Assembly (NCBI RefSeq): GCF_019923745.1
Contig: NZ_JAANOG010000002.1
Location: 310,001-374,000 of the forward strand
Length of the DNA stretch: 64,000 bases
Origin: Aquirufa aurantiipilula
Lineage (GTDB): Bacteria > Bacteroidota > Bacteroidia > Cytophagales > Spirosomataceae
Reading direction: 5' to 3'
Shown here: positions 34,531-43,258 of the stretch, piece after piece
Layout: every line of letters begins with the position of its first letter
Position numbering within the stretch: position 1 is the first letter of the stretch
Notes under the pieces: model-generated
The model's database searches: none
What the model saw: the letters and a program-made list of their open reading frames with translations, nothing else
Told to the model about the DNA's origin: nothing
Made by a program: the position numbers and the translations under genes

Positions 34531-35520
34531 TTATAATTGGTTTAGATCTAAAATTTCTTGAGGAGTGGCTTCGCCTGTTTCGCCTAGTTTATGTATAGAA
34601 ATATGCGCACACAAGGTAGCAAATTCACAGGCTTCTTGTATACTGGCTCCTGCTGCTTTGGCTGCAGAAAATCCTGCTACAATCATATCACCTGCACCCA
34701 CGGTATCAATGGGGCCTTTGGCAGGAATGCCAGCTTGCCAATGGAAATGATCATGGTCCGCATAAATGAGCCCTCGATCACCCAAGGTTAGCAAAGCACC
34801 TTGTCGGCGGTTTTTGACCCATTCTTTAACAATGTCAGGCAGTTTTTCACTGTCTTCCAATAAAGCGGGGTTGATATGTAATAAATGGGCTAATTCAGAT
34901 TCATTGACTTTCAGAAGGACTTGATTGGCAAAATTCCCTAAGCTACGTAAATCGGCTAGGCCTATTTTGTGTGCCTTATTCATGGCTGATTGTAGCTTTT
35001 CAAGCAAATGTTGGTTCAGTAAAGGATATCGAAATTGCTCGTTGATAATTACCCAATCGTATTTATCAAGCTGATTACAGAGGGAATCCACTAAATCTTG
35101 ACTGGCCTGAACGATATCTTTTTCTTGTGTACCAAAGTCGATCCGATTCAATTCCACCTCTCCCTGCATGGGTTTGGAGTAAGTAGGAGTGTCCATACTT
35201 GGCAGCGACTTAAGGTTCTCGGCATGAATGCCTAGATTTTGGCAGTGGAAATTCATATCTCGACCAAAAATATCGGAACCAATCAGTCCAAAAGCAGAGG
35301 TAGGAACTCCTAATGTAGCTAGGTTTTTGGCTACATTTCCTGCTCCACCTAAACCTGTTTTGGGGGTTTTGGCCCAATGTACTTCTTTTCTTGTTTCGAC
35401 AGAAAAGTCGCCGGTTTCTTCTGTTTTTTGGAAGTAAAAATCAATGGCAAAATCTCCAATGACCGCAATTTTCAAGGATTGAATACGGCTTAGGATGTTC
35501 CGTAATTGTTCGGGGGACAT
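34531..35520 (-). CDS. PfkB-family carbohydrate kinase (HldE-like)
   Basis: A 329-residue ribokinase-fold enzyme with the N-terminal GLGGAGNVAKNLATLG and the catalytic GAGDMIVAGFSAA (Asp in GAGD). The early VIGDFAIDFYF, TPTYSKPMQGEVELNRIDFG and overall pattern resemble the heptose-7-phosphate kinase half of HldE (RfaE1), but the neighbouring AGE epimerase suggests a kinase of a scavenged sugar. The two readings are not resolved by sequence alone. Confidence 0.8.
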   Translation of the reverse strand: MSPEQLRNILSRIQSLKIAVIGDFAIDFYFQKTEETGDFSVETRKEVHWAKTPKTGLGGAGNVAKNLATLGVPTSAFGLIGSDIFGRDMNFHCQNLGIHAENLKSLPSMDTPTYSKPMQGEVELNRIDFGTQEKDIVQASQDLVDSLCNQLDKYDWVIINEQFRYPLLNQHLLEKLQSAMNKAHKIGLADLRSLGNFANQVLLKVNESELAHLLHINPALLEDSEKLPDIVKEWVKNRRQGALLTLGDRGLIYADHDHFHWQAGIPAKGPIDTVGAGDMIVAGFSAAKAAGASIQEACEFATLCAHISIHKLGETGEATPQEILDLNQL

Positions 35521-35583
35521 GCGTAAATGGTATAGATTGAAATAATAGGTTTATAATGATGTAAAGCTAAATAAAAATCGTCA

Positions 35584-35677
35584 AAAGGGAATTGTAAATT
35601 GTAAATGATGAATTATAAATGATCGACGGATTTGATAACATTCTACATTCTTAATTCTTCATTCTACATTCTTCCTT
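35584..35677 (-). repeat. GAATGTA-type tandem repeat, supplies a stop codon (copy 1)
   Basis: On the minus strand: units GAATGTA, GAATGAA, GAATTAA, GAATGTA, then an AT-rich tail with ATCATTTATAATTCATC-like units. The TGA inside the GAATGA of this block is the stop of the gene at 35659-36141. Confidence 0.85.
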
Positions 35678-36141
35678 TTTACCGGTATCCATATTTCTTC
35701 TTCAGAATTTGGGTCATTATTTTTATACTTTTCTCCTAAGACCTCAAAATGTGGACGGTAATCGAGTTTATATTCGGAAGCAGGTAACCAGGTAGTGAAA
35801 ATATATTGAAAGATTTGAGGGTCAGCAAGACCTTGGTACTTGAATACCGCGTACAAACCACCTATTAACAGGAGGCTTTCCATGCCTTGGGGAATTGGGG
35901 CAGATGGACTTACCTCGATGCATGCCCATTTTACAAAATGGTTCATGGGAGAAAATTCGATAAAATAGTTGGTTGGGTAAATTTGCAAGGAAATCAAATT
36001 CGAAGTGTAAGCGTCGGATATTTCATGGCGTCTGGGCATGAAAGTAGCCCAAAGTTGACTTGTGGTATTGGCGGCCAAACTCATTTCTTGATGTATACCT
36101 ATGAGTCTTTTTTCTGGAAGGATTTCAATTCTAGGTGTCAT
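35659..36141 (-). CDS. GyrI-like/AraC effector-binding domain protein
   Basis: A 160-residue protein resembling stand-alone GyrI-like domains, which fold like the effector-binding part of AraC/MerR regulators (PTNYFIEFSPMNHFVKWACIEV, GGLYAVFKYQG, LDYRPHFEVLGEKY). It probably binds a small molecule. No DNA-binding domain. The last codons and the stop fall in a GAATGTA-type repeat. It forms a pair with the DUF1801 gene upstream (24-bp gap). Confidence 0.83.
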   Translation of the reverse strand: MTPRIEILPEKRLIGIHQEMSLAANTTSQLWATFMPRRHEISDAYTSNLISLQIYPTNYFIEFSPMNHFVKWACIEVSPSAPIPQGMESLLLIGGLYAVFKYQGLADPQIFQYIFTTWLPASEYKLDYRPHFEVLGEKYKNNDPNSEEEIWIPVKRKNVE

Positions 36142-36165
36142 GCTTGGATCAAAATAGCGGATGAA

Positions 36166-36624
36166 TTATGATTTTTTTAACATGCTCTCATAGCATTTAA
36201 TCCAATCTTCTACAGTTATTTTTTGAGCCAATTTTGCAATTAATGAGAAAGGGATATCATCCATTTTTTTGAATCTGACACAACTTTTTCCCATGTCCAA
36301 TTTTGATTTGGCATGTTTCGGATATTCATCTTGAAACCATTGAAGTAGCTTTTCGTTGGCATACATGCCCATGTGGTACATTGCAATGAAGTTTTTTTGT
36401 GAGGCGATGCTCAAAAAGGGTAGGGGCTCATCGGTTTTACAATGGTATCCAGCAGGGTATATGGATTTGGGTACGACATAGCCAATCATCCCATAACTGA
36501 TGGTTTCTTCAAATCCTGGAGGAAGATGATCCAATATCGTTTTTCTTAACCTAGCGATGATCACTTTCCGATCATCAGTTAAGAGGTTTTCATATTCATC
36601 TGGGCTTAGGGCTTGGTTGGACAT
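36166..36624 (-). CDS. DUF1801 (YdhG-like) protein
   Basis: A 152-residue protein with the family's typical opening (ARLRKTILDHLPPGFEETISYGMIGYVVP), mid HCKTDEPLPFLSIASQKNFIAMYHMGMY and tail KSCVRFKKMDDIP. Function is unproven. It forms a minus-strand pair with the GyrI-like gene. Confidence 0.87.
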   Translation of the reverse strand: MSNQALSPDEYENLLTDDRKVIIARLRKTILDHLPPGFEETISYGMIGYVVPKSIYPAGYHCKTDEPLPFLSIASQKNFIAMYHMGMYANEKLLQWFQDEYPKHAKSKLDMGKSCVRFKKMDDIPFSLIAKLAQKITVEDWIKCYESMLKKS

Positions 36625-36673
36625 GAGAGAGGAGATATAAGATGAATTAGGGTAAATCTAAGGTAATATGTTT

Positions 36674-38635
36674 TTAGATTGTTTTTATCCCACATGAGCT
36701 CAAAAATTGATATGTACTATCATAAAGATCTAACGGTCTTGTCTGATCTAATTGGTCGCCATTGGGAATGAAAATAATTAATCCTTGCCTAGCTCTTGTC
36801 ATTAATACTCTGTACGAATTTCTTATATAGGATTTATTAATTTCATTTACAATTCCTTTCCATTTTGTTCCTTCGAAAGATTGGTAATTCCATTCACCAT
36901 TTTTGAAGTAGAAATTAATATCCCAGGCTAAGCAAACGTAATCTATTTCCAACCCTTGTATATCAAATTCTGTGGCAACAAGTTCTAAATACTGGGAAGA
37001 ACGTACGTCTCTTGCATCGTTCAAGAACCAATCCTCTGCCGTAATCTCATTTTTTACATCAATACCAAGTGGTCTTAATCTTCTTCCACCTGAGCTTCCA
37101 ATTATTCCAATTCTTTCAGTACCTTTTGCATTTTTTCTTAGCCATCTTTTTGCGACAGAAATATCTCTAGTTAGAAGTATGGGGAATTGATTATTGATTT
37201 CAGTTAAAATTGATTTTGCATTATTAGCATTGCCTTCGATTAATTTATGAACAAAACTTGATATTTTTTCCGATCTAAATGAACGAACAGATACAGATAG
37301 ATGGAGTTCTTTTTCAGAATTCCCAGTTTTATTTAACCAATCTTTCAAAGATTCATTTCCTAAATAGTCTTTATCATCGGTGATCATATTGGAATAATAT
37401 ATTATCCAATTGGGATAATGATTTTTTAAGGCTAAGATCCATTCGGATAAACCTGCTTCCCCAGTATTTATTTCTTGGCCTCCTCCAATGAGACATATAA
37501 TTGTGCAATAATTTTCATGTCGATTCATTACTTCAATCAAGAATTCAGGTTCAGACATGTGAAAATCCGTACCTTTTGATTTCATGAATGAAGCCGCTTT
37601 TTCTCGCGTCCAAGCACGTTGGGCTTCATCAAAGACAACTACTTTTTCATCTGGAGCATGTAGAGATATTAAATTATCATCTCTGAAATGATGAATATTT
37701 TGTATGAAGGCATTGGCTTTTATTACGGAACTTTTTTTTGTCAATTTTTTGCCATTTTCTTTGGCTTGCAATACTTCATCTCGAACCAAAGCTTCTCTCA
37801 GTACATAAACCAAAGGGCCATTCCCAGAAAGAAAAACAGCATTTTCATCTTCATGAGCTTTTCTTCTTTCGTTTGCAATGTTTAATCCTGCAAGGGTTTT
37901 ACCAGCTCCAGGTACTCCAGTCAAAAAACAAATTGATTTACTGTGTGATGTTTTTGATTTTTCAATAATACGATTTATACATTCTGTTGTTTTGGTTAGG
38001 TTAATTGCACCTGAATCACTTCGTGAAATTTCAGTAACAGAATGACCCCTATATAAGGCTTGTGAGGCTTCAATGATAGTAGGTGTTGGTTTATATGTCG
38101 ATTTTTCCCACTTAATAGGATCTATTTTCGTGCTATTGCTCAATCGAAGTGTTTGATTAATATTTTCAGTAAGGTTAGATTGATTAGCAAATATTGGGTC
38201 TAATAATTGATTTTCAATTTCCCATTTATTTTGAATGTTGGGTGCTTTTGTTGATATCAATAAAGGAACAATTTTTTCATAATGACTTCCCTGATGAAAA
38301 TTTTGTAAATCTAAACAGTAGTCAACAGTTTGTTCTATGGCATGTTTTTGATATTCAGATTCGCCAACTTTAAATTCCATGACAAATATAAAATCATCAA
38401 GAAGTAAAATGTTATCAACACGTTTTCCCATCCTAGGAATAGAAAACTCAAAGTATATAGTACCTCTTTTAAATGGAATTAGCGTAGCCTTGAGGATTTC
38501 AATTTGCCTCATCCATGCATTACGCTGTAAATTTTCGGTTGCAAATGAATGATTTCGAATTAATTGTCCAAGTATCTTGTCGTTATCGTCAATCAAGAAG
38601 TTGGTAACCGAATTTGAATAGTAGCTTCTTGTCAT
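36674..38635 (-). CDS. PD-(D/E)XK nuclease-SF1 helicase fusion (DUF2075 family)
   Basis: A 653-residue protein. An N-terminal domain (to ~residue 190) has D74 and E87-x-K89 in an RVDNILL...VMEFKVG setting, the spacing of PD-(D/E)XK nucleases. A helicase/AAA core follows: Walker A GVPGAGKT (residues 240-247), Walker B VVFDEAQ (D336, E337), motif III-like GGGQE near 394-398, and motif VI VLMTRARQG near 611-619. DUF2075 helicases of this type often occur in defence islands, so an anti-phage nuclease-helicase is likely (inference). Base composition is AT-richer than the flanks. No partner gene is evident. Confidence 0.82.
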   Translation of the reverse strand: MTRSYYSNSVTNFLIDDNDKILGQLIRNHSFATENLQRNAWMRQIEILKATLIPFKRGTIYFEFSIPRMGKRVDNILLLDDFIFVMEFKVGESEYQKHAIEQTVDYCLDLQNFHQGSHYEKIVPLLISTKAPNIQNKWEIENQLLDPIFANQSNLTENINQTLRLSNSTKIDPIKWEKSTYKPTPTIIEASQALYRGHSVTEISRSDSGAINLTKTTECINRIIEKSKTSHSKSICFLTGVPGAGKTLAGLNIANERRKAHEDENAVFLSGNGPLVYVLREALVRDEVLQAKENGKKLTKKSSVIKANAFIQNIHHFRDDNLISLHAPDEKVVVFDEAQRAWTREKAASFMKSKGTDFHMSEPEFLIEVMNRHENYCTIICLIGGGQEINTGEAGLSEWILALKNHYPNWIIYYSNMITDDKDYLGNESLKDWLNKTGNSEKELHLSVSVRSFRSEKISSFVHKLIEGNANNAKSILTEINNQFPILLTRDISVAKRWLRKNAKGTERIGIIGSSGGRRLRPLGIDVKNEITAEDWFLNDARDVRSSQYLELVATEFDIQGLEIDYVCLAWDINFYFKNGEWNYQSFEGTKWKGIVNEINKSYIRNSYRVLMTRARQGLIIFIPNGDQLDQTRPLDLYDSTYQFLSSCGIKTI

Positions 38636-38794
38636 CTTAGGTTTAGATAATTAGTGAATATTGTAGAATTCTAATTGAATTAGGCAAGCTTGTTTCTAGA
38701 AATTATTGAACACTTTGGTTTGAATATTGTAAATGCAATTTAAGCCTTTTGATAATTTAAAATGCAAAACATTGAAAATGAATCCCATGTGAAA

Positions 38795-38825
38795 GATTTG
38801 TCAAATTTTCAAAATTTGACAAATC
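38795..38825 (-). terminator. Palindromic hairpin after the 137-aa gene (core CAAATTTTGAAAATTTG)
   Basis: Perfect 15-bp arms (GATTTGTCAAATTTT / AAAATTTGACAAATC) around a single base. It begins 30 bp downstream of the 38856-39269 stop and probably acts as its terminator. It shares its core with the hairpin at 39835-39871. Confidence 0.75.
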
Positions 38826-38855
38826 TAAACCACTTGGAATCCTTTTACACTTTAT

Positions 38856-39269
38856 TTATTGTGGAGGAAAAACAAAGTTTGATAAGGTAGCTGTATCATT
38901 CAATGTACCCAATGAAATTTGGATGCTATTGTTACTGTTTGCAGAAATTGATGTGTTCCCATTATCTGAAGAAACAAAAACAAATAATCGGTCAATACCT
39001 TGACACAAGACTGAGCCATCTGGTGAAGCGGCTGCACTTTGCCATAATCCATTGTAAATCATAAGGGTATTTCCACCAGGAACGTTGTATGATGTAGACA
39101 CTCCATCGACAACTGCCACAAAGGTTCCACTTACAATCGTCCAACCTATACAATTAGGATTGTCTATTGTACGTATTGGGTTCGTCAATGGTCCTGTTTG
39201 AACATGTAGAACATAGGTGTTTCCTGTTGTAGGAGAAACAAATGTGTATTTTGCTTTTAAATTTGACAT
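38856..39269 (-). CDS. Hypothetical beta-rich protein
   Basis: A 137-residue protein without a signal peptide or membrane helix. It is rich in Ser, Thr, Asn and Val with alternating hydrophobic stretches (TYVLHVQTG, SGTFVAVVDG, DRLFVFVSSDNG), suggesting a small beta-sandwich or fibre-like protein. I recognise no family. It lies between the nuclease-helicase and a 612-bp gene-free stretch. Confidence 0.55.
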   Translation of the reverse strand: MSNLKAKYTFVSPTTGNTYVLHVQTGPLTNPIRTIDNPNCIGWTIVSGTFVAVVDGVSTSYNVPGGNTLMIYNGLWQSAAASPDGSVLCQGIDRLFVFVSSDNGNTSISANSNNSIQISLGTLNDTATLSNFVFPPQ

Positions 39270-39881
39270 TTTAAATAGATTAGTACTCCTACTCTTTGGC
39301 TTTTCGGTTTCCGCCTCTCATTGAATTGACTGAATGAGAACAGTCCGTTTTTGTGGTGGTATCTGCTCCACATGTTTGAATTTCTGTCACCCTGGATGGT
39401 CAATCCTTTTTGACCCGAATCAATAATTTTTTACCCATCTAAATTTGTTTTTATGGGCCGAGATTTTTTGCCTAATCTACTTTTTCTCTTTAAAAAGTTT
39501 AATCTCTTAATCCGCGTGTTACGTATTATTTTGTCAAGAGAAATTTAAATTTTTGAGATTCTATGTAAAATCGCCCTATTAGGTAGGATATAGGGATTAT
39601 GTTCTGAATTTTAAATGAGGCTTTTGTTTGTCAACAAAAGTTTAAATTCTTCTGATTTACCAGATTTGATGTGATTTTGTCTGAATTATTGACGCTGGAC
39701 TTGGGTTGAATCCTTAGATTTAGATAAGAGGAATGTCTTTCGAAATGGATTAAGCGAATCCTTGGTGCATCAGAATGATGCGAATTGATGAGGCAATGGT
39801 ATTCAAGCTGTGTAATGCAGCATTTTATAAAAATTTAGCGTTATCAAATATTCAAAATTTGATAACGCTAAACGATTATGA
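39270..39881. other. Gene-free AT-rich stretch between the orphan gene and the OYE operon
   Basis: The only gap over 300 bp in the window. It has no credible frame. A TCTCATT/AATGAGA pair lies at 39317-39340. A hairpin at 39606-39649 (CTTTTGTT/AACAAAAG, extended by AATTTAAA-like arms) is the most stable structure. A terminator hairpin sits at the right end (39835-39871). No TAnnTTTG promoter was found on the minus strand for the orphan gene. Confidence 0.6.
39835..39871 (-). terminator. Terminator hairpin of the OYE operon (core CAAATTTTGAATATTTG)
   Basis: 15-bp arms TTAGCGTTATCAAAT/ATTTGATAACGCTAA with a 7-nt loop lie 10 bp after the stop of the gene at 39882, followed on the minus strand by ATTTTTAT. 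The inner core matches that of the hairpin at 38795-38825; the outer arms differ. Confidence 0.8.
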
Positions 39882-40148
39882 TCAAAACTGCTTGATCAAG
39901 GGGAAGTATTCAATGCTTTTTCTCAATGGGTATATGGGTAAGGTCGTCATAAGGATTTCTACTTGCTCTTGGTCTATATTTTTGAATACCAACACTGCTC
40001 CATTTTTGCTTTGACGTAGAAAAAAGTTTTCCAAAATACCCTCTTCTTTCCATTGAGCAATTTTGGCTTGCTCGTGTTGAATGATTTCTTGAAAATTGGT
40101 CGGGAGATTGTCGATGTCAATGGTCAAAATAGCTTGAATGCAATTCAT
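39882..40148 (-). CDS. Muconolactone isomerase/YciI-like small protein
   Basis: An 88-residue protein (MNCIQAILTIDIDNLP... IEILMTTLPIYPLRKS). The ferredoxin-like alternating pattern and length fit the muconolactone delta-isomerase-like dimeric alpha-beta barrel group. It lies 11 bp after the old yellow enzyme gene and is probably co-regulated by HxlR. Its catalytic role is uncertain. Confidence 0.65.
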   Translation of the reverse strand: MNCIQAILTIDIDNLPTNFQEIIQHEQAKIAQWKEEGILENFFLRQSKNGAVLVFKNIDQEQVEILMTTLPIYPLRKSIEYFPLIKQF

Positions 40149-40159
40149 GATATATATGT

Positions 40160-41239
40160 TTATTTATTTAAAAATGGATAATCAATATAGCCATAATCTT
40201 GACCACCATACATGGTTGCACGGTCAGCTTGGTTCAATTCGGCATTTAATTCAAATCGTTTGGGCAAGTCGGGATTCGCTAAAAAAAGTGTACCAAACGA
40301 TATAAGTTTCGCAATGCCTTTTTGCAATTCCGCTTCTCCTGTTTCCCTTGTATAACCCAAATTGGCAATCACGGGATGTTGACTGATTTTTCCAAATGTT
40401 TCGATGGAATCACTTGGGTAATTGGGAAACTGCTCAAGTGAAAAGGGTACATGCATGATGTGGATGTAGGCCAATGGTAATTTGTTCAATTCTTGAATCA
40501 AAAGGCTAAATTGGCCCACTGGATTTTGGTGTGAAATACCATTATACGTGCTAGTTGGTGAGATACGTATGCCTACTTTATCCTCTCCAATGGCTTGGAC
40601 CAATTCCTGCATGATTTCAACGACAAAACGATTCCTATTTTCATCATTACCTCCATATTCATCCGTTCTTTGATTGACACTGTCAGCTAAAAATTGATTA
40701 GGTAAGTATCCAAAGGCAGAATGCAATTCTACTCCATCAAAACCAGCTTCTAGGGCATTGATAGCAGCTTGCTTGTATTCTTGAATGATGTTTTTTACCT
40801 CTTCTGTGCTCAATGCTCTCGGCGTCTCATAATCTTTCATACCTTCCATCGTAAAATGTTGTTGACCCTCAATAGCCACCGCGGAGGCAGAAACTGGCAG
40901 TTCTCCATTTTTTACTAATGAATGTCCCACACGTCCTGTATGCCATAATTGAGCATAAATGACTCCACCATTTTCATGAACGGATTGAGTCACTTTTTTC
41001 CATGCGGCTATTTGTTCGATCGTGTAAATCCCTGGTGTCAAAGGACTTCCCAAGGCTTGCTTGGATATGTTAATCGCTTCAGTGATGATTAAACCAGCAC
41101 TGGCACGTTGGGAATAATATACTTGTGTGGATTCACCGACAAGTCCATCGACAGTAGCCCGACTCCTAGTCATGGGAGCCATCACCATGCTATTTTTTAG
41201 GTCGTGTTGACCTAATTTTATTGCTTCGAGTAATTTCAT
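40160..41239 (-). CDS. Old yellow enzyme (alkene reductase, NemA-like)
   Basis: A 359-residue TIM-barrel flavoprotein with the FMN-binding MAPMTRSRA, QLWHTGRVGH, ELHSAFGYLPNQFLADSVNQRTDEYGG and a late active-site region. It reduces electrophilic alkenes such as N-ethylmaleimide, typical of electrophile stress responses. It is divergently paired with an HxlR regulator gene, with a likely operator in between. Confidence 0.93.
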   Translation of the reverse strand: MKLLEAIKLGQHDLKNSMVMAPMTRSRATVDGLVGESTQVYYSQRASAGLIITEAINISKQALGSPLTPGIYTIEQIAAWKKVTQSVHENGGVIYAQLWHTGRVGHSLVKNGELPVSASAVAIEGQQHFTMEGMKDYETPRALSTEEVKNIIQEYKQAAINALEAGFDGVELHSAFGYLPNQFLADSVNQRTDEYGGNDENRNRFVVEIMQELVQAIGEDKVGIRISPTSTYNGISHQNPVGQFSLLIQELNKLPLAYIHIMHVPFSLEQFPNYPSDSIETFGKISQHPVIANLGYTRETGEAELQKGIAKLISFGTLFLANPDLPKRFELNAELNQADRATMYGGQDYGYIDYPFLNK

Positions 41240-41285
41240 TTTTTAGCTTTTTGATTATTTTCTTGTAAACATAAAGTCATTACTT

Positions 41286-41299
41286 TACTTTTGAAAGTA
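41286..41299. promoter_or_regulatory. Probable HxlR operator
   Basis: TACTTT-TG-AAAGTA is an inverted repeat with 6-bp arms in the 117-bp divergent region; a second GTTAC...GTAAC pair spans 41300-41323. HxlR-type regulators bind such symmetric sites. Confidence 0.5.
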
Positions 41300-41356
41300 G
41301 TTACACGAATGTACAGTAGTAACCCAAGGTAAAGCAATGCTTATAATCAAATAGTT

Positions 41357-41689
41357 ATGGGAGAAAATAATTTAAGTATTTCAGAAAAAACATGTTCCTT
41401 GAAGGAAGTGTTGGATATTATTGGCGGTAAATGGTCCATGCCAATCATTTATATTTTATCGAAAGGTAAAATGCGTTTCAAAGAATTAGAACGCTCAGTT
41501 GAGGGTATTAATACCCGAATGTTGGTCAAGGAATTGAAAAATATGGAAGTGAATGGCATAATCACTCGGGAGGTTTTTGCGACAGTTCCGCCGACAGTTG
41601 AATATACCCTAACCTCGAAAGGAGAAAAACTACTTCCCAGTATTGCTTCTTTGCATCAATGGGGCCAGGAGTTTGCTTCTGGAATGTAG
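41357..41689 (+). CDS. HxlR-family transcriptional regulator (thiol-sensing type)
   Basis: A 110-residue winged-helix regulator: CSLKEVLDIIGGKWSMPIIYIL, then INTRMLVKELKNME and a wing. A single early cysteine (C11) is positioned as in redox/electrophile-sensing HxlR proteins such as YodB and HypR. It probably represses or activates the divergent old yellow enzyme gene. Its last codons and TAG stop fall inside the GAATGTAGAATG repeat. Confidence 0.9.
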   Translation: MGENNLSISEKTCSLKEVLDIIGGKWSMPIIYILSKGKMRFKELERSVEGINTRMLVKELKNMEVNGIITREVFATVPPTVEYTLTSKGEKLLPSIASLHQWGQEFASGM

Positions 41690-41742
41690 AATGAAGAATA
41701 TAGAATGAAGAATGTAGAATGGGAAATGTAGAATGAAGATTT
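41682..41742 (+). repeat. GAATGTA-type tandem repeat, supplies a stop codon (copy 2)
   Basis: Head-to-tail units GAATGTA, GAATGAA, GAATATA, GAATGAA, GAATGTA, then GGAAATGTAGAATGAA and an ATTTAGT/ACTAAAT inverted repeat. The first TAG is the HxlR stop. Confidence 0.88.
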
Positions 41743-41869
41743 AGTTTATAGTGAAGGGGCCTACAGGCATTTGCCATTACTAAATAATTTATAATCCAAC
41801 ATTCCTTCCCATTTCTTGTCGCAAATTTGTAAATTTACCTTTCGTTTCCACCTTTAAAATATTAGTATT

Positions 41870-43258
41870 TTGGCCTTAATTAAATCAATCTCTGGAATTC
41901 GTGGTACTATTGGAGGAAAGCCTGGTGAGGGCTTAAGTCCAATCGATGTAGTTACTTTTGCTGCTGCTTATGGCACTTGGCTGCGTCGCAATAATCATCC
42001 ATCTAACTCCATTGTATTGGGTCGTGATGCACGTATTTCGGGTGAAATGGTTTCTTCTTTGGTAGCGAATACCTTAATTGGTTTGGGTTGGAATGTACTA
42101 GATATTGGTTTGTCAACTACTCCTACGGTTGAACTAGCCGTCCCTTGGACAAAAGCGGCAGGTGGTATCATCATTACTGCCAGTCATAATCCTGCTCAAT
42201 GGAATGCATTGAAGCTCCTAAATTCAGATGGAGAATTTATTTCAGATGCTGATGGGAAGGCTTTATTGCAAATTGCAGAACAACAAGATTTTCAGTTTTC
42301 TGAAGTATTTCAATTGGGGAAAATCACTCAGGACGATACTTTCTTGGATCAACATATTCAACATGTGCTTGATCTTCCTTGGGTGGATGTCAATGCCATT
42401 GTTCAATCTAAATTCCGCATTTTAGTGGATGCTGTGAATTCCACAGGTGGCATCGTGGTGCCTCATTTATTAAAAGCCTTGGGTGCCGCCCATGTTGATG
42501 TAATTTTCGGTGAACCTACGGGTCATTTTGCCCATAACCCAGAACCTTTACCTGAAAACTTGACAGACATGATTGCCAAAATGAAGTCAGGTAATTATGA
42601 CTTAGGTATCGTGGTGGACCCAGATGTGGATCGTCTTTGCTTCATTAATGAAGATGGAACACCATTTGGAGAAGAATATACCTTGGTGGCTGTAGCTGAT
42701 TATGTTTTGTCCAAACAAATTGGAAACACGGTCTCTAACTTGTCGTCCACCCGTGCTTTACGTGATGTGACCGAGTCAAAAGGTGGGCATTATTTTGCGG
42801 CCGCTGTGGGTGAAGTGAATGTAGTCAACCAAATGAAGGCTCAAAAGGCCATTATTGGTGGAGAGGGAAATGGGGGAGTGATCTTCCCGGAATCACATTA
42901 TGGACGTGATGCTTTAGTGGGTATCGGTTTATTTTTAACGCATTTGGCAAATTCTGGGATGAAGATTTCAGCATTGAGGGCATCTTATCCAGCCTATGTG
43001 ATTTCAAAGAATAAAATTGAGCTTTCTGCCAAACTGAATGTGGATTTAATCCTTGATTCGATTGCCAAAGCCTATCAAGAATACAATGTTAATACGATTG
43101 ATGGAGTCAAAATTGACTTCCCAGAGGGATGGGTGCATTTGCGCAAATCCAATACTGAACCTATCATTCGAATATATGCGGAAGCTTCTACGGAAGAACA
43201 AGCCAACACTTTTGCTCAACAAATTATGAATGCGATTGAAAAAATCGCACAGTCTTAA
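41870..43258 (+). CDS. glmM: Phosphoglucosamine mutase (phosphohexomutase family)
   Basis: A 462-residue phosphohexomutase converting glucosamine-6-P to glucosamine-1-P for UDP-GlcNAc. The phospho-serine loop TASHNP (S105), metal-binding DPDVDRL and sugar-binding GGEGNGG are visible. The frame begins at TTG 41870 (ALIKSISGIRGT is the usual start of these proteins and no ATG is near). A phosphoglucomutase/phosphomannomutase specificity cannot be excluded. Confidence 0.87.
   Translation: MALIKSISGIRGTIGGKPGEGLSPIDVVTFAAAYGTWLRRNNHPSNSIVLGRDARISGEMVSSLVANTLIGLGWNVLDIGLSTTPTVELAVPWTKAAGGIIITASHNPAQWNALKLLNSDGEFISDADGKALLQIAEQQDFQFSEVFQLGKITQDDTFLDQHIQHVLDLPWVDVNAIVQSKFRILVDAVNSTGGIVVPHLLKALGAAHVDVIFGEPTGHFAHNPEPLPENLTDMIAKMKSGNYDLGIVVDPDVDRLCFINEDGTPFGEEYTLVAVADYVLSKQIGNTVSNLSSTRALRDVTESKGGHYFAAAVGEVNVVNQMKAQKAIIGGEGNGGVIFPESHYGRDALVGIGLFLTHLANSGMKISALRASYPAYVISKNKIELSAKLNVDLILDSIAKAYQEYNVNTIDGVKIDFPEGWVHLRKSNTEPIIRIYAEASTEEQANTFAQQIMNAIEKIAQS

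Follow-up and report, generated by a model that had tools for sequence, protein, structure and literature searches.

PDC-S41, a single-gene nuclease-helicase with a probable role in defence, at a variable site of Aquirufa aurantiipilula

Introduction

The locus considered here raises the question of what a gene encoding a putative nuclease fused to a helicase does between two core genes of the freshwater bacterium Aquirufa aurantiipilula, and whether it protects the cell against phages and plasmids. The preliminary description of the window (that is, the whole stretch of 64,000 nucleotides analysed) had proposed a possible single-gene defence system, but assigned it to no named one. The latter statement proved wrong: by its profile match, the protein is a member of a family already named PDC-S41 in PADLOC-DB 2.0.0, a putative defence candidate, and the match covers residues 1–652 on profile positions 1–652 of 657, with E = 2.1e-283. 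No NCBIfam model matches the 653-aa protein at E ≤ 1. Since PDC-S41 is catalogued, and the available text of PMC10121019 counts PF09848, the Pfam family of its helicase part, among the Pfam families of Abi proteins, this is a new member and not a new family.

Results

Domains of the protein

The coordinates of the gene, its domains and motifs, and the features of the surrounding site are given in Table 1.

Table 1. Features of the PDC-S41 locus (positions in the window)
Feature	Position	Strand	Evidence
PDC-S41 nuclease-helicase gene	36674..38635	-	ORF, 653 aa, ATG start; PDC-S41 and PF09848 matches; model mean pLDDT 85.0
N-terminal PD-(D/E)XK nuclease domain (probable), residues 1–190	38066..38635	-	model of residues 1–195; Foldseek and VIA matches; sub-threshold Pfam matches
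E63 codon	38447–38449	-	
D74 codon	38414–38416	-	
E87-F88-K89, (D/E)XK part of the nuclease motif	38369..38377	-	invariant in 76/76; present in a 28%-identical plasmid copy
Q102-x-x-x-Y106 motif	38318..38332	-	invariant in 76/76; also in 51/51 N-terminal domains
SF1 helicase region, residues 191–653	36674..38065	-	PF09848; VIA Z 16.5 to UvrD, 15.9 to SLFN11
Walker A, GVPGAGKT, residues 240–247	37895..37918	-	G245, K246, T247 invariant in 76/76
Walker B, residues 333–337	37625..37639	-	D336, E337 invariant in 76/76
Helicase motif VI, residues 609–617	36785..36811	-	R609, R614 invariant in 76/76
Variable site, accessory genes between core PfkB and PGM	34531..43258	.	PfkB and PGM less than 200 bp apart in 10/15 relatives
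Core PfkB gene	34531–35520		
Core PGM gene	41870–43258		
Recently exchanged cassette, gene and about 190 bp upstream	36674..38828	.	DNA identity to G012, low GC
27-bp palindrome, dispersed element, upstream edge of the cassette	38797..38823	.	14 places in the genome

PF09848, named SLFN-g3 helicase in Pfam and formerly DUF2075, matches residues 233–624 with E = 3.2e-77 and 260.6 bits against a curated cut-off of 24, spanning profile positions 1–353 of 354. The match confirms the helicase core suggested earlier, with K246 in Walker A, D336-E337 in Walker B, and R609 and R614 in motif VI. Foldseek with the whole model places SLFN11 (E = 6.9e-10) and SLFN14 on top, followed by Upf1, Dna2 (5ean, E = 4e-7) and RecBCD (3k70, E = 8e-7). 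In the VIA comparison UvrD, SLFN11 and others fall within about one Z unit of each other, hence the motor has the usual SF1 core.

Two further PF09848 matches are present in the genome. One is weak (E = 8e-7) and belongs to a type found in most genomes of the genus. The other is a protein of 728 aa, encoded on another contig (L002:952–3138), and it has weak matches to the Nhi and PDC-S14 models of PADLOC; from its sequence, it was read as having a GIY-YIG-like nuclease N-terminus and an S24/LexA-like peptidase C-terminus.

The model of residues 1–195 has a pLDDT of 90.4. D74 is on strand 71–79, and E87 and K89 on strand 82–89, so that D...(D/E)xK occupies neighbouring beta strands. Foldseek with the N-terminal domain alone yields nothing at E ≤ 0.001; Cdn1 ranks first (E = 2.1e-3, probability 0.98), and behind it come an R2 retrotransposon protein, McrBC chains and Can2. 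The VIA scores are 9.2 for Can2 (145 residues, 4.2 Å), 8.7 for Cdn1 (137 residues, 3.9 Å), 8.0 for a McrBC chain (123 residues, 3.4 Å) and 7.8 for EndoMS, Hjc also being among the Foldseek and VIA matches; the upper VIA rows are presumably mostly PD-(D/E)XK enzymes. Sub-threshold Pfam matches to NERD in 15 of 51 members and to HSDR_N in 5 of 51 agree with these structural matches. Thus the structure prediction for the first 190 or so residues, suggested as a check of the nuclease, returned a PD-(D/E)XK core fold closest to PD-(D/E)XK enzymes, albeit at a modest best Foldseek score. Based on the modelled core fold and the conserved motif, residues 1–190 probably form a PD-(D/E)XK nuclease domain with putative cleavage activity.

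Conservation of the residues

We found 324 relatives in species genomes and kept the best 80 of them, of which 75 are full length and contain no stops. The alignment of these 75 and the window protein (76 rows) has six residues of the nuclease part, E63, D74, E87, K89, Q102 and Y106, and ten of the helicase part, G245, K246, T247, D336, E337, Q387, R454, Q560, R609 and R614, identical in all rows. D74, E87 and K89 are at the positions given for them in the preliminary description, whereas E63 and the Q102-x-x-x-Y106 motif had not been listed there; this supports the nuclease-helicase fusion. In the nuclease part 37 of 190 positions are invariant, compared to 125 of 463 in the remainder, hence the nuclease motif is not the sole constrained part.

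Since no row falls below 57% identity to the query, remoter loci were examined as well. Out of 26 further loci, 24 matched, the exceptions being L002 and L003, which encode the other PF09848 proteins; L143 is the same gene as L010. At 28–82% identity, eleven checked residues are kept in 23 of the 24 loci, that is, in all 23 that span the nuclease part, while the 24th, L163, is devoid of this part and retains the four residues that it covers. Hence the nuclease residues are conserved beyond the close relatives. In the nine loci from viral contigs, D74, E87 and K89 are kept in all eight that span them. The exceptions there are E63 replaced by D in L208, R454 replaced by A in five loci, and Q102 and Y106 reading otherwise in L210 alone; near copies of the latter keep both residues, and the difference is perhaps a shift in the alignment.

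Five homologues (L030, L031, L032, L039, L041) are 801–902 aa long and have a common C-terminal extension that ends in a conserved ...FICSEWYE..NNDR..F..WL motif and is absent from the other 70 intact homologues. The Gracilibacteria copy (L075:3574–5544) has two stop codons under table 11. This lineage reads TGA as glycine, and the gene may therefore be intact.

The variable site in the genus

An intact gene is present in three of 38 genomes of the genus, the window's own included, and one more genome, G003, has a remnant (about residues 554–653, interrupted by stops). When only the 16 genomes with a completeness of 90% or more are counted, the numbers remain three intact genes and one remnant, hence incomplete genomes do not account for the patchy pattern. 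The homologues are not universal at the same place, and the accessory status proposed for the gene holds.

The site between PfkB and PGM was compared in 15 of the other 37 genomes of the genus. Besides the relatives where the two core genes are close neighbours, G015 has DUF1801 alone between them, G012 has an intact copy of the helicase gene, G003 carries its remnant at the site, and in G004 the contig ends. In G022 the neighbouring accessory genes are present and the helicase gene is missing, a 79% copy being situated on another contig. The closest named record among the relatives listed is Aquirufa nivalisilvae.

The DNA identity between the window and G012 is 98.4% in the gene and 97.9% in the upstream 193 bp, compared to 77.1–91.1% for ten neighbouring genes; in the 49-bp spacer below the gene, 45 of 49 positions are identical. 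The GC content of the gene is 33.0% against 37.4–43.1% for nine neighbours, and its GC3 is 23.1% against 25.4–39.2%. The high identity to G012 within lower flanking identity, together with the low GC content, indicates that a cassette of about 2.2 kb was exchanged recently, as judged from these comparisons.

The 27-bp palindrome that borders the cassette upstream, TTTGTCAAATTTTNAAAATTTGACAAA, occurs in four exact and ten two-mismatch places in the genome, the reversed control giving none, and its copies are also seen in variable stretches of related genomes. Possibly, it is a dispersed terminator-like element. By these counts the palindrome is real. As to the terminator-like hairpins reported at the locus, the sole one scored in the region 36500–39300 (37303–37323) lies within the coding sequence and is at chance level, one being found and 1.2 expected. 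A 34-nt inverted repeat (35638–35671 and 41682–41715, 91% complementary) is situated near both ends of the PfkB–PGM variable stretch.

The neighbours scanned in Pfam are DUF1801, a GyrI-like protein and an orphan protein. The orphan gene (38856–39269, 137 aa) has no Pfam match above the cut-off and shows 64–74% identity in three relatives, with the helicase gene intact alongside or not. The 612-bp gap that had been placed next to the nuclease-helicase gene exists, but it separates the end of the orphan gene from the next ORF, which starts at 39882. The orphan gene and DUF1801 were both considered as partners and rejected, as they are retained in G022, whose matching site does not contain the helicase gene. 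For the three nearest neighbours in the window no PADLOC model matches at E ≤ 1, so that no defence gene was found beside this copy, and no XRE gene was found among the window ORFs. The only tRNA in the 64-kb window is 8.5 kb from the gene. A tRNA integration site was rejected more generally: any tRNA is present in only four of 46 scanned loci, the nearest being 1.3 kb from the gene, in L033.

Neighbourhoods of the relatives

In L030 and L031 only 2 nt separate the gene from the type I restriction enzyme gene that precedes it. Plasmid pCXA carries an annotated DNA methyltransferase, and L032, L039 and L041 each contain a relative of it (E = 1e-23, 2e-11 and 3e-27, respectively) at about 5, 9.5 and 6.5 kb from the gene; we read these as HsdM. 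Three other genes scanned in L032 had weak candidate matches or none. All five loci form one starred clade in the tree. In L206 a type II restriction enzyme and a methyltransferase, together with one small ORF, are just upstream of the gene. The plasmid copy L141 directly adjoins McrC and an AAA ATPase, and two methyltransferases are encoded 5.6 kb from it; in L140 a methyltransferase is 7.7 kb from the gene. In the prophage-like contig L210, one small ORF lies between the gene and an endolysin gene, and a virion protein gene is situated farther out on that side.

An XRE regulator is directly upstream in 16 of the 76 loci with enough upstream DNA, and none was found in the other 60; seven of the 16 belong to one Flavobacteriaceae clade. 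Two of these regulators were scanned, and both match PADLOC control proteins. In a Flavobacteriaceae clade a NUDIX-like gene (our own reading; PDC-S07 in PADLOC) adjoins the gene in eight loci, several of them with a polA-like gene next to it, and, as these neighbours are common to the clade, that lineage looks stably inherited. The NUDIX-like gene is the most frequent neighbour, but it was rejected as a partner, being confined to this one clade. An all-against-all comparison of 1024 neighbour proteins of at least 90 aa from 80 loci revealed no general partner gene, and the likely single-gene character of the system is supported.

Relatives of nine restriction-related queries were seen in seven of 80 loci and one of 41 control regions, which is not an independent test, since the queries come partly from the same loci. 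We also compared PADLOC matches of neighbours with those in control regions of the same contigs, using 41 of the 80 loci in two sets: 139 neighbour and 132 control proteins for 24 loci, and 126 and 123 for 17. For the second set 23 loci had been chosen, of which L073, L012, L017, L030, L048 and L070 were left out, the last five because no control region could be fitted on their contigs. Both arms excluded proteins of at least 900 aa, and families rather than genes were counted. With PDC-S07 excluded and the RtcR forms counted once, there were ten PADLOC names among neighbours against two in controls at E ≤ 1e-40, a cut-off chosen after the results (Fisher p = 0.037, which treats names as genes). 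At 1e-20 the first set gave ten names against seven, and the second 11 against one. Thus the excess of defence names among neighbours over control is weak. In the neighbourhood analysis suggested in the preliminary description, some homologues (L030, L031, L206 and L141) have restriction or McrC neighbours, but no defence neighbour was found for the window copy.

Distribution

The gene is found in 22 of 392 genomes of the phylum, the own genome included. Plasmid copies are present in four records, two of which are from one strain, and one copy is in a phage record, besides the loci from viral contigs. In a quick tree, the starred branches force at least seven changes of the label Bacteroidota. 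At that, the phylum labels are clustered on the tree (none of 500 shuffles is as low), hence transfer between phyla is occasional; single cross-phylum cases are uncertain, because bins may hold foreign contigs.

Discussion

We suggest that PDC-S41, a nuclease-helicase encoded by one gene that moves horizontally, most likely serves to protect the cell, its target being the DNA of invading phages or plasmids; the adjacency of some relatives to defence genes in other bacteria makes an anti-virus role probable. Given the two domains and the analogy with Nhi, we infer a mechanism of motor plus cutting. The SF1 motor would bind exposed single-stranded DNA or DNA ends and travel along the DNA using ATP, and the N-terminal PD-(D/E)XK domain would nick or cut the DNA during this travel, so that the invading DNA would be degraded by an ATP-driven motor-nuclease, as with Nhi. 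What is observed are both domains, the invariance of their motifs, the recent exchange, the decayed gene of one relative and, for some relatives, a setting of restriction genes, a plasmid or a prophage-like contig; the DNA substrate and the action on phage are inferred.

The same two domains could serve DNA repair, the protein being a housekeeping or auxiliary enzyme similar to Dna2, AddAB or RecB that processes DNA ends and plays no part in defence. Dna2 and RecBCD are indeed among the Foldseek matches, the QxxxY motif is typical of RecB-type nucleases, and in the Flavobacteriaceae clade the gene stays in one place, next to the NUDIX and polA-like genes. However, the gene is intact in few genomes of the genus and found in few of the phylum, decayed in G003, missing from the site in G022, which has its copy elsewhere, and carried by plasmids and viral contigs, and the starred branches force repeated changes of the label Bacteroidota; we consider this explanation improbable. 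A role in which the protein acts on RNA or kills its own cell, as a Schlafen-like or toxin-antitoxin-like effector with the XRE protein as the repressor or antitoxin, is less probable again. It would agree with SLFN11 and SLFN14, described in published abstracts as RNA-cleaving, being the best PDB matches of the whole model, and with the XRE gene upstream of some copies; on the other hand, most of the loci, as well as the window, yielded no such gene, and Pfam shows no match to the Schlafen core at E ≤ 1. The nuclease fold, moreover, is closest to enzymes that we take to be mostly DNases.

Finally, the gene could be cargo of mobile elements, excluding competing phages or plasmids for the benefit of its carrier, be it a prophage, a plasmid or an island. 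The short exchanged cassette, the copies on plasmids and viral contigs, and the position of L210 near an endolysin gene are consistent with this reading, whereas the window copy is situated between core genes, its neighbours are DUF1801, the GyrI-like and the orphan gene, and the only tRNA is remote; as the primary role, we rate it the least probable of the alternatives. It overlaps with defence and does not contradict it.

The family occurs in several phyla as well as on plasmids and viral contigs, but no phage assay or other experiment on it was found in the literature searched, where the name PDC-S41 itself retrieved no paper. The window copy suits a direct test: it is a one-gene cassette, recently exchanged, with a natural remnant and a natural site where the gene is absent.

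Comparison with known systems

The closest known system is PDC-S41 itself, the protein having a full-length profile match and consisting of a single gene; no difference was found in the protein. The window copy differs in its setting, since some relatives have a defence neighbour or an XRE gene. According to the available text of PMC12988326, PDCs are mostly unvalidated candidates from guilt-by-embedding, that is, they lie in or beside known defence systems; the source of the candidates, as a cited reference, is a preprint (doi 10.1101/2024.01.29.577857).

With human Schlafen 11 and 14 the protein shares the helicase family. Group III Schlafens have the order Schlafen core, linker, SF1 helicase (available text of PMC9482658), the linker being called a domain of unknown function (available text of PMC8789055), and the core has been compared with restriction enzymes (available text of PMC12215978). 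By contrast, the PDC-S41 protein starts with the nuclease domain instead of the Schlafen core, and the domain in the place of the linker carries a complete PD-(D/E)XK motif. Residues 393–554 of SLFN14 align with the N-terminal domain at VIA Z 7.1 (133 residues, 4.1 Å, rank 18), the tool warning of common arrangements below Z 8. The alignments of the SLFN14 entries extend over as much as residues 11–629 of the model, with rmsd 8.8–10.2 Å, whereas the SLFN11 rows align with the helicase part only; absence of a family from a VIA list does not exclude it. One phmmer and two profile searches for a sequence link to solved structures or Schlafens gave only hits judged to be chance. The resemblance between the linker and a PD-(D/E)XK domain that is intact, and that likewise precedes a helicase of this family, is suggestive; such a link is not stated in the available text of the three papers. 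One may speculate that bacterial PDC-S41 proteins preserve the ancestral state, with an intact catalytic site, of what became the C-terminal half in group III Schlafens. The linker would then be a decayed PD-(D/E)XK nuclease, and human SLFN11 and SLFN14 would have joined an RNase core to a bacterial defence nuclease-helicase. We regard this as unlikely; if true, it would explain the origin of the middle domain in the human antiviral Schlafens.

Can2, Cdn1 and Card1, the CRISPR ancillary nucleases, and McrBC resemble PDC-S41 in the nuclease fold, as seen for Can2, Cdn1 and a McrBC chain. They carry CARF sensors or the McrB motor, whereas in PDC-S41 the nuclease chain itself contains the motor, an SF1 helicase. 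Nhi likewise combines a nuclease and a helicase in one polypeptide and, in the available text of a review (PMC12904381), detects phage SSB and nicks and unwinds DNA. The PADLOC Nhi profile, however, matches only residues 214–297 of our protein, on profile positions 184–260 of 470 (E = 8.7e-5). By this comparison the PDC-S41 protein is not a member of Nhi, but it may work like one.
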